DNA of 64,000 nucleotides, taken from contig QQVD01000056.1 of assembly GCA_003388555.1 (NCBI GenBank), positions 124,001 to 188,000 of the forward strand, read 5' to 3'. Every line of letters begins with the position of its first letter. Position 1 is the stretch's first letter. The position numbers were made by a program, and so were the translations under genes. The notes below the pieces were generated by a model, which worked only from the letters and a program-made list of their open reading frames with translations, was not told where the DNA came from and ran no database searches. The stretch is from Acidobacteriota bacterium (GTDB lineage: Bacteria; Acidobacteriota; Thermoanaerobaculia; Multivoradales; Multivoraceae). Shown here piece by piece: positions 54,177 to 58,838 of the stretch.

Positions 54177-54851
54177 GTGAGTCGCGAAGACGATCAGGAC
54201 CAGGCGCTCTCGTCCTCCCGAGCGAAAGCCGCGGACACCCCCGATGCAGCGGAGGTGACGCGGCTGCTGCAGCGCTGGCGCACCGGTGACGAGGCCGCGC
54301 AGGAGGAGGTGTTCGAGGCGGTCTACGGCGACCTGAGGCGCCTGGCCGGCGCCGCCATGCGCAACGAACGCGCCGGGCACACGCTGCCACCGACGGCCCT
54401 CGTGAACGAGGCGTTCCTGCGCATGGAGCGCGAAGGCTCGGCACGCCTGGTGGCCGAGAACCGTCGCCAGTTCCTGTCGATCGCGGCGCGAGCGATGCGC
54501 CGCATCCTGGTGGAGCACGCCCGTTACCACGCCGCCGCGCGCCGCCCGTCTCCGCACGATGCGAAGCCGCTCGAGGATCTCGACAGCGGCCAGCAGCCGC
54601 GCCTCCGAGAGCCCCTCGAGCCCATCGAGGTGCTGGCGGTCGACCAGGCGATGGGACGACTGGGGGCCACCAACGAGCGCGCCGCGCGGGTGGTCGAGCT
54701 GCGCTACTTCGCCGGTCTCGAGGAGTCGGAGGTCGCCGAGGTGCTGGGCGTCTCACGCGCCACGGTGACCCGCGAATGGCGGCTGGCGCGCCTGCTGCTG
54801 CGCTCGTTCATCGACTCGTCCACGGCGGCGGAGAGCGGCGCCGATGGCTGA
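54177..54851 (+). CDS. ECF-type RNA polymerase sigma factor
   Basis: The product is 224 residues from the GTG at 54177. Sigma region 2: VTRLLQRWRTGDEAAQEEVF through LRRLAGAAMRNE, with the TALVNEAFLRM segment typical of the ECF subgroup found beside Ser/Thr kinases. Region 4 helix-turn-helix: VVELRYFAGLEESEVAEVLG, then VSRATVTREWRLARLLL. It redirects RNA polymerase in response to a signal. The kinase gene starts 12 bp downstream; no anti-sigma factor is present, so phosphorylation by the kinase is the plausible control (inference from the known ECF-kinase pairs). Confidence 0.9.
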   Translation: MSREDDQDQALSSSRAKAADTPDAAEVTRLLQRWRTGDEAAQEEVFEAVYGDLRRLAGAAMRNERAGHTLPPTALVNEAFLRMEREGSARLVAENRRQFLSIAARAMRRILVEHARYHAAARRPSPHDAKPLEDLDSGQQPRLREPLEPIEVLAVDQAMGRLGATNERAARVVELRYFAGLEESEVAEVLGVSRATVTREWRLARLLLRSFIDSSTAAESGADG

Positions 54852-54863
54852 GGGCGATGCCCG

Positions 54864-57317
54864 GTGAGCGGTGAGCGCGACCGGCGCCTGCAGGAGCTGC
54901 TCGCGGCCCTGCTCGACGTGCCGGAGGAGGACCGCGAACGTGAGCTCCAGCGGATCGAGACCGATCCCGAGCTCGCCGCGGAGGCGGCGCGGCTGCTCGC
55001 CAGCGAGCAGCTGTCGTTCCTCGGTGCGCCGGCCGTCGGGGCACTCGCCCGGGATGCGGCCGCGACGCAGGAGGGCTACCGGGCGTCGTCGACCGACGAC
55101 CACGAGCTGCTCGAATTCCCCGACTACACCGTCGAGAGGCTGCTCGGCGAAGGCGGTATGGGCCGCGTTTTTCTGGCCCGGCAGAAGAGCGCCGGCGGCC
55201 GGGCCGTGGCGCTCAAGATCATCCGCGGCACGCTGCTCTCGCGCGATCTCGAGCGACGCTTCACCGTCGAGCAGCAGGCGCTGGCGCGGCTGAACCACCC
55301 GGCGATCGCCCAGCTCTATGCCTCCGGTACCACCACCGACGGCAGGCCCTTTGTGGCCATGGAGTTCGTCGACGGCGTGCCGATCACGCGCTGGTGCGAC
55401 GAGCGGGGGCTCGGAGTGCGCCAGCGCATCGAGCTGTTCGTCGCCATCTGCCGCGGCGTCGAGCACGCCCACCGCAGGCAGCTCCTGCACCGCGACCTCA
55501 AGCCGTCGAACCTGCTGATCACCGAACGCGACGGTGCCGCGACGCCGAAGATCATCGACTTCGGTATCGCCCGCACGCTCGAGGCCGCCGAGGGCGCCAC
55601 CGCGCTCACCGGCACCGAGCTGCTGGGCACTCCCGCCTACATGAGCCCGGAGGCGATCCGACCGAGCGAAGGCCCCCGCGATCTCGACACGCGGACCGAC
55701 GTCTACTCGCTCGGCGTGGTGCTCTACGAGTTGCTGCTCGGCGTGCGCCCCTTCGACGGCGACACCCAGACCGACGCGCTCAGCCTGATCCAACGCATCG
55801 CCTCGGAGGACGCTCCGACCCTGCAGCGTCGCTGGAAGGATCTCGACGAGATCCGCCGCACGGACCGCGCCAGCACCCTGGGCCTGCAGCCTGCAGAGGT
55901 CCACCGGGCCTTCTCCGGTGAGCTCTCCTGGATCCTCGAGCGGGCGATCTCCTCCGAGCGGGAGGCTCGCTACGGCTCGGTGGCGGCACTCGCCGACGAT
56001 CTGGAGCGCCACCTGGCCGACGAGCCGATCGCCGCCGGACCTCCGAGCTTGCGCTACCGCACGGGCAAGTTCGTGCGTCGCCACCGTCTGCCGGTGGCCG
56101 CCGCGGCGGTGGCGGTGCTGTCGCTGGTGGCAGCGGTCGTCGCCTCGACGTTGGCGCTGCAGCAGGCCCGCAGCGCGGCGCGCGAGGAGGCCGAGGCGCG
56201 ACGTGACGCGGAGACCGCGCTCGGATTCCTGTCACGCATCTTCCAGTCGTCGGCGGTCAACCAGCAGGGGGTGCGGCGCAACCCGGAGGAGGTCACGGCG
56301 CGCGACCTCCTCGACCAGGGTGCCGCGAGGATCGAGCAGGAGCTCGGCGACCGGCCGCTGCAGGCCGCCGATCTACGCCGCACGCTGGCCGCCTCCTACC
56401 GCAACCTCGATGTCCGCGACGCAGCACGCGAGCTGCTGCTCGACTCGCAGGCCGCGCTCGAGGCCGAACCCCCGAGCCCGGCGGTGAAGCAGCGCCTCGC
56501 CAGGGTCCACATCGAGCTCTCCCAGCTCGCCGACTCGGAATCGCGCAACGACGAGGCGCTGGACCATCTCTACCGGGCCGAGGAGCTGCTGGCCGGGTCG
56601 GACGTCACGAAGACCGAGCGCACCCTGCTCACTGCGCAGATCCTCGATCGCCGCGCCACCGCCAAGATGCGGCAGGCCCGGTACGACGAAGCCGAGCGCC
56701 TGGCACGCGAGGCCATCCGACTCTGTGAGTCGGACCCCGCCATTCCTCTGGACCAGACCCTGGGCAGGATCAGCAATCTGGGCACCATCTTCTTCCAGCA
56801 GGAGCGTTGGCAGGAGGCCGAGCAGCACCAGCGTCGCGCCGCCGAAATGGCTCGTCGGGTCCTCGGCAGCGAGCACACCCGCACCGCGCGCATCGTCGAC
56901 AGCCTCGCCGCGGCGATCGCTTCCCAGGGCCGCCTCGACGAGGCCGCACCGCTGTTCGCCGAGTCGTTCGAGATCCGCCAGGCGATCCTGCCCGAGGACC
57001 ACCCAGACCTCGCCATCAGCCTGAACAACCAGGGCCAGCTCGCCACCGACCGCGGACGCTACGCGGAGGCCGAGGACTTTCACCGCCGAGCCCTCGCCAT
57101 CCGCACACAGTCTTTCGGCCCCGTGCACCCGACCACCGCCTGGAGCTGGCAGGCCCTGGCGGGCGCGCTCGAGAAGCAGGGGCGGGGCGGCGAAGCCGTC
57201 GCGGCGCTGCGCAGCGCGGTGGAGATCCTGCGCCAGCGCCTGCGCCCCGACCACCCCCGACTGCTCGGGACTCAGAAGCTGCTGGACGAGATGGAGACGC
57301 GTGTCGGCCGCGAGTGA
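54864..57317 (+). CDS. Serine/threonine protein kinase with TPR domain, sigma-factor partner
   Basis: The product is 817 residues from a GTG. The N-terminal about 85 residues are helical (DRRLQELLAALLDVPEEDRE). The kinase domain is about 88-380: GEGGMG (95-100), lysine of VALKII (118), HRDLKPSN (209-216), DFG (232-234). A membrane helix follows (about 410-432), then coiled coil and tandem TPRs of the kinesin-light-chain type (AEQHQRRAAEMARRVLGSEH, AEDFHRRALAIRTQSFGPVH). It is probably the sensor/effector of the adjacent ECF sigma factor. Confidence 0.93.
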   Translation: MSGERDRRLQELLAALLDVPEEDRERELQRIETDPELAAEAARLLASEQLSFLGAPAVGALARDAAATQEGYRASSTDDHELLEFPDYTVERLLGEGGMGRVFLARQKSAGGRAVALKIIRGTLLSRDLERRFTVEQQALARLNHPAIAQLYASGTTTDGRPFVAMEFVDGVPITRWCDERGLGVRQRIELFVAICRGVEHAHRRQLLHRDLKPSNLLITERDGAATPKIIDFGIARTLEAAEGATALTGTELLGTPAYMSPEAIRPSEGPRDLDTRTDVYSLGVVLYELLLGVRPFDGDTQTDALSLIQRIASEDAPTLQRRWKDLDEIRRTDRASTLGLQPAEVHRAFSGELSWILERAISSEREARYGSVAALADDLERHLADEPIAAGPPSLRYRTGKFVRRHRLPVAAAAVAVLSLVAAVVASTLALQQARSAAREEAEARRDAETALGFLSRIFQSSAVNQQGVRRNPEEVTARDLLDQGAARIEQELGDRPLQAADLRRTLAASYRNLDVRDAARELLLDSQAALEAEPPSPAVKQRLARVHIELSQLADSESRNDEALDHLYRAEELLAGSDVTKTERTLLTAQILDRRATAKMRQARYDEAERLAREAIRLCESDPAIPLDQTLGRISNLGTIFFQQERWQEAEQHQRRAAEMARRVLGSEHTRTARIVDSLAAAIASQGRLDEAAPLFAESFEIRQAILPEDHPDLAISLNNQGQLATDRGRYAEAEDFHRRALAIRTQSFGPVHPTTAWSWQALAGALEKQGRGGEAVAALRSAVEILRQRLRPDHPRLLGTQKLLDEMETRVGRE

Positions 57318-58090: not shown

Positions 58091-58496
58091 CGCCAACTCC
58101 TACGCACACGACGAAACCGCACGCCTTCGGCGCCGGAACGGACGCACAGCCAGGCACGGGCAACCCGCGAGCAGTCCGCGGATGCCGCGAGGAGGGGATG
58201 GCGCATCGGTGGCGCGCTCGGAGTGCAGCGAGCGGCTCCGATCCGCTCGACGGTCGGCTGCGACTGAAGCTGGGACAGCACCTGGGCGCGAACTCCTGGC
58301 ATCACGGAAGTCCTCGCATCCGGAGCACGGACAGAGAGCGAACTCCTCGTTACCCGGGGAGCCTTCGGACTCCGCTCGCTCGGGCTCAGTGGGTAGACGA
58401 CGGGTAGACTGTAACTCGTCACCGCCGAACGCCGGGAGCGGCGCCCCGGCGCTCTTGCGACACGTTCTCGAACACCCTGTGAGAGGAGAGTGGCCC
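58091..58496. other. Divergent intergenic region upstream of the selenoprotein gene
   Basis: No gene supported. A short direct repeat (GGGTAGAC at about 58390 and 58401) lies about 100 bp upstream of the selenoprotein start and could be a regulatory site. The ribosome site GAGAGGAGA is at 58481-58489. Confidence 0.4.
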
Positions 58497-58838
58497 ATGG
58501 CCAAGAAGATCGACTGGTACTACCACCGCAACGGCTGAACCAGCTGCACCAGAGCGTCCAAGTTCCTGGACGCACGCGGCATCGAAGCTCGTGAGACGAT
58601 TCCCGCGAGCCGCAAGCTGGGACGTGACGAAGCCCAGCAGCTCGCCGAGGCGGCGAGCCGGCTGGTCGTCGCCAAGGGCAAGAAGATCTCCGAGTGGAAG
58701 GGCAAGGAGACGGCCACCCCCGAGGCGGTCGACGCGATGCTCGGCCCCACGGGCAACCTGCGGGCGCCGACCCTGCGCGCCGGCAAGACGGTGCTCGTCG
58801 GCTTCAGCGAAGAGGTCTTCGAGGACGCGCTGGGCTGA
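58497..58838 (+). CDS. ArsC/Spx-like thioredoxin-fold selenoprotein (Sec encoded by TGA at 58536)
   Basis: The product is 113 residues if the in-frame TGA at 58536-58538 is read as selenocysteine (residue 14). The sequence before it is MAKKIDWYYHRNG. After it the same frame continues TSCTRASKFLDARGIEARET and runs to the TGA at 58836. The motif is G-U-T-S-C, a U-x-x-C redox site at the place where ArsC/Spx/thioredoxin-like proteins carry CxxC after the first beta strand. Later parts (KKISEWKGKETATPEAVDAM, LRAGKTVLVGFSEEVFEDAL) fit an ArsC-like alpha/beta fold of normal length. Strong ribosome site (GAGGAGA), ATG at 58497. ArsC-like selenoproteins are a known class. It probably acts as a cytoplasmic thiol/selenol reductase; substrate unknown. 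The alternative is a nonsense-mutated pseudogene. Confidence 0.85.
58554..58573 (+). promoter_or_regulatory. Candidate bacterial SECIS hairpin
   Basis: GCGTCCA (58554-58560) pairs perfectly with TGGACGC (58567-58573) around a six-base loop AGTTCC. The stem begins 16 nt after the UGA, and the loop G-U lies about 24 nt after it, within the distance range for SelB-recognised elements, whose loop carries a conserved G/U. It overlaps codons 20-26 of the selenoprotein gene. Confidence 0.65.

Follow-up and report, generated by a model that had tools for sequence, protein, structure and literature searches.

ArsC-like selenoproteins were found in Deltaproteobacteria in the 2006 survey of Zhang et al. 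(PMC1794560), and two types were described from the ocean metagenomes of the GOS survey, one of which, "Arsenate reductase 2", carries a U-x-x-C motif and was assigned to cd03032 (PMC2398784). A 2026 selenoproteome review includes "Arsenate reductase-like protein, NF041106, UxxC" in its catalogue of known families (PMC13188914), the same selenoprotein type having been entered under COG1393 in a 2022 review (PMC9312934). Here we describe a gene at positions 58497–58838 on the forward strand of a 64,000-nucleotide stretch of a contig (QQVD01000056.1) from an uncultured member of the Acidobacteriota; we call this stretch the window. An earlier note on this DNA had pointed out that ArsC-like selenoproteins are known, which is right, and the exact family is NCBIfam NF041106. 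The window protein resembles the reviewed NF041106 type in family score, in size and in having a U-x-x-C motif with selenocysteine (Sec) first; we found no difference between them and regard the gene as one more member, contributed by an acidobacterial lineage. With the Deltaproteobacteria proteins and "Arsenate reductase 2" it has in common the ArsC/Spx fold class and the use of Sec, and with the latter also the U-x-x-C motif. The family is already catalogued, and the window gene is a well-supported but unsurprising addition to it.

The gene consists of 113 codons followed by a TGA stop codon (58836–58838), and its translation reads MAKKIDWYYHRNG-U-TSCTRASKFLDARGIEARETIPASRKLGRDEAQQLAEAASRLVVAKGKKISEWKGKETATPEAVDAMLGPTGNLRAPTLRAGKTVLVGFSEEVFEDALG-stop, where U is encoded by an in-frame TGA at codon 14 (58536–58538). 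The motif around Sec14 is U-T-S-C, the Cys codon, which specifies the predicted resolving residue Cys17, lying at 58545–58547. A Shine-Dalgarno-like AGGAG (58484–58488), read from the sequence, is located 8 nt 5′ of the ATG, and the relatives have purine-rich stretches at the equivalent place. The protein matches NF041106 (ArsC_rel_Se_1, "ArsC family (seleno)protein") over profile positions 1–107 of 107, scoring 112.5 bits where the cut-off is 85, and the U-x-x-C with a TGA-encoded first residue by which this family is recognised is present in the form of the codon 14 TGA and Cys17. When the gene family was searched in the genome itself, the gene was recovered with 104.9 bits and one TGA inside the match. 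We conclude with high confidence that the window protein is a thioredoxin-fold selenoprotein of the NF041106 family.

The same frame is also open upstream, where a 245-residue ORF starting with GTG terminates at the codon 14 TGA, and a 137-residue antisense ORF overlaps the selenoprotein frame. A gene caller could output either of these spurious ORFs, and the locus is a clean case in which routine gene calling goes wrong. Because open frames are cheap in GC-rich DNA, the case for the gene rests on comparisons. Homology to either side of the TGA, conservation of the TGA in its alignment column, a third-position bias and a conserved hairpin together place the frame beyond chance.

Relatives were drawn from a sample of 396 genomes of the phylum, from named species genomes and by coordinates. 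Among the 77 aligned sequences that cover the codon 14 column, 69 have TGA, a count that takes in the window and L021 (the same gene) as well as a few other duplicate rows such as L034/L127, and eight have a Cys codon (TGC or TGT). Within the NF041106 family and its sister family TGA is found in 67 of the 67 other rows covering the column; the eight sequences with Cys codons are more distant ArsC/Spx-like homologues. The relatives that are 46–73% identical to the window protein were found in records bearing the labels Acidobacteria, Thermoanaerobaculia, Gammaproteobacteria, Deltaproteobacteria, Myxococcota, Planctomycetota and others. The Cys17 position is occupied by Cys in 76 of the 77 sequences and by Ser in one. 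The exception, L032 (G223:C156:5855-6175), reads U-T-S-S and retains the hairpin; this is either an error in the assembly or a natural variant with a single selenol.

Constraint continues past the TGA. Compared with its relative L051, the window gene differs 3′ of the TGA at 21, 20 and 36 first, second and third codon positions, respectively, and within genus g2 of the same family the pooled differences in this stretch are 455, 250 and 1707 (pS 0.302, pN 0.037). This excess of third-position changes indicates that the stretch beyond the TGA is kept as protein. Thus, the frame that had been proposed from the letters, which runs through a TGA at codon 14, is confirmed, and both homology and constraint extend past the TGA. 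These data also bear on whether an ordinary Cys protein is encoded here, its Cys codon appearing as TGA through sequencing error or decay, as the distant homologues with Cys at this column might suggest. An identical TGA is present in dozens of independent assemblies from several phyla, and the constraint 3′ of the TGA, the hairpin and a full set of Sec machinery also stand against such an error or pseudogene; since the TGA is shared across relatives, we reject this explanation as hardly conceivable.

The hairpin is a predicted bacterial SECIS element, GCGUCC-AAGUUCCU-GGACGC (58554–58573, forward strand), with a GU (58562–58563) in its loop. It spans nucleotides 16–35 3′ of the UGA and places the loop GU at nucleotides 24–25, in agreement with the hairpin soon after the UGA and the G or GU in the loop that characterise bacterial selenoprotein genes. 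The 24-nt hairpin has a folding energy of −12.4 kcal/mol (z −4.25), and none of 200 shuffled sequences was equally stable. The register of the window hairpin is kept in 31 sequences, in a group of 20 sequences the register is shorter by one nucleotide and the GU lies about as far away, and a third group of relatives forms a GCACC-loop-GGUGC hairpin; the hairpin of some relatives, L060, L073 and L075 among them, is weak or shifted in register. For covariation we used 23 distinct sequences of the first register, 22 selected by protein similarity plus L068, leaving out the other registers and L073, a choice of register that somewhat favours structure. In this set 92.8% of the cells pair and changes on both sides occur in two of the six pairs; the covariation score was reached by none of 500 shuffles and by no slid register. 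RNAalifold independently recovers the same helix. A scan of the locus against Rfam gave chance matches only and no family fitting the hairpin.

The assembly, which amounts to 6.8 Mb at 98.8% completeness and 1.1% contamination, encodes the machinery for Sec incorporation. In particular, selB is found on contig C30 (315 bits, cut-off 242), selA on C46 (422 bits, cut-off 268), selD on C5 (G000:C5:13767-14720, L018; 228 bits, cut-off 125) and the tRNA-Sec gene, selC, on C14 (70 bits, cut-off 47), which ARAGORN reads as tRNA-SeC with the anticodon TCA (UCA). Other, weaker matches to tRNA-Sec in the genome fall below the cut-off and were disregarded. C5 is the contig that contains the window, selD being located approximately 168 kb away; selD lies within an open frame of 871 residues, much longer than SelD alone, and may be fused to a further domain. 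The selenoprotein reading of 58497–58838 in the earlier note, which would have been undone by a lack of homologues with Cys or Sec at codon 14 or by a genome without selB and selC, is supported on both counts, as the 69 TGA and eight Cys sequences provide the homologues and all four genes named for the genome check (selA, selB, selC and selD) score over their cut-offs.

Across the 396-genome phylum sample, 46 of 46 TGA-bearing genomes have a SelA match, compared to 276 of 396 overall, and no genome of family f35, which carries Cys forms, is among the SelA matches in this sample. The co-occurrence of TGA and SelA points in the expected direction, although it is inflated by shared ancestry. SelA scores over the cut-off in 250 of the 396 genomes. 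The genes of the Sec system that the note took the selenoprotein to imply for this lineage are indeed present, but since such a system is common in the phylum this is no surprising implication. The RpoB encoded in this assembly shares 85% identity with that of the metagenome-assembled genome Thermoanaerobaculia bacterium IP29b_bin.170, 70% over a partial stretch with that of an "Acidobacteria bacterium" and 49–57% with RpoB of records from Myxococcota, Gammaproteobacteria and Planctomycetota, and on these identities the genome is most likely that of an acidobacterium near Thermoanaerobaculia. Sec use appears to be widespread in Thermoanaerobaculia-like Acidobacteriota, the lineage of the window gene.

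A confident AlphaFold2 model of the protein (pLDDT 88, pTM 0.77) is closest among solved structures to Spx, followed by YffB, SACOL0876 and glutaredoxins, with TM scores of approximately 0.5–0.58 and approximately 20% identity, and a profile search agrees in matching the Spx, SACOL0876 and YffB structures. In its predicted fold and in where the redox pair sits, the protein is like Spx, YffB and SACOL0876 (PDB 7f75, 1rw1 and 2m46), which at approximately 20% identity have Cys where the window protein has Sec. Residues invariant in 25 relatives are W7, Y9, R11, U14, C17, F23, A37, G61, G83, G86, R89, A90, P91, G96 and G102. These residues would fit a redox enzyme in which Sec attacks and Cys resolves near a cis-proline-type motif (R-A-P). 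Within the Spx/ArsC/glutaredoxin superfamily, the protein is most likely a selenol/thiol oxidoreductase. We infer that the hairpin immediately 3′ of the codon 14 UGA directs SelB and Sec-tRNA(Sec) to read this codon, and that the product would have an Spx/ArsC/glutaredoxin-like fold whose first helix begins with a redox-active Sec14-x-x-Cys17 pair. Sec14 would then attack the substrate and Cys17 would resolve the resulting bond, as in a selenol/thiol-disulfide oxidoreductase.

The family name and the Pfam search, in which PF03960 (ArsC) is the best match, raise the possibility of a true ArsC-type arsenate reductase that detoxifies arsenate and has its catalytic Cys replaced by Sec. The PF03960 score is 18 bits, however, below the cut-off of 24, and none of the solved relatives found, Spx, YffB and SACOL0876, is a proven ArsC. 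Arg107, the third arginine in the active site of the ArsC encoded on plasmid R773, maps through an alignment with Spx to Gly102; glycine occupies this site in the window protein and throughout the 25 aligned sequences, and also in Spx. The sub-threshold Pfam score and this glycine make arsenate reduction very unlikely, and ars genes are absent beside the locus. The label "ArsC-like" holds as a description of the fold, but the residues give no support to arsenate reductase activity.

Spx provides the best structural and profile matches, and the U-x-x-C occupies the site of the Spx C-x-x-C switch, as would befit a transcription regulator of the Spx kind, sensing redox state through a selenenylsulfide switch and binding the C-terminal domain of the RNA polymerase alpha subunit. 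The Spx-specific model TIGR01617 (Spx/MgsR) nevertheless gives the window protein only 27.6 bits, far under the cut-off of 75.05, the YffB and glutaredoxin structures match comparably, and Spx is known from Firmicutes. We consider such a regulator quite unlikely here, and the broader proposal that the whole family controls transcription in Sec-using bacteria as an Spx-like redox switch based on selenium, and is not an enzyme, more doubtful still. An oxidoreductase rather than a regulator is the probable function.

The neighbouring genes encode a PEMT/ICMT-type methyltransferase, an unknown protein, an FAA hydrolase and a kelch/PQQ protein; none at the locus is obviously linked to the selenoprotein or hints at its substrate. 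In a search for conserved neighbours across the relatives, the large clusters contained nothing but the gene and frames antisense to it, which indicates that there is no shared operon. Elsewhere in the window, positions 54177–57317 contain an ECF sigma factor gene followed by a gene for a Ser/Thr protein kinase with TPR repeats. Four acidobacterial genomes (G230, G275, G229 and G042; L123–L126) encode a second Spx/ArsC-like Sec protein with a U-x-x-C motif. These are only distant homologues of the window protein (16–25 bits in phmmer) and look like the "Arsenate reductase 2" of the ocean metagenomes (PMC2398784).
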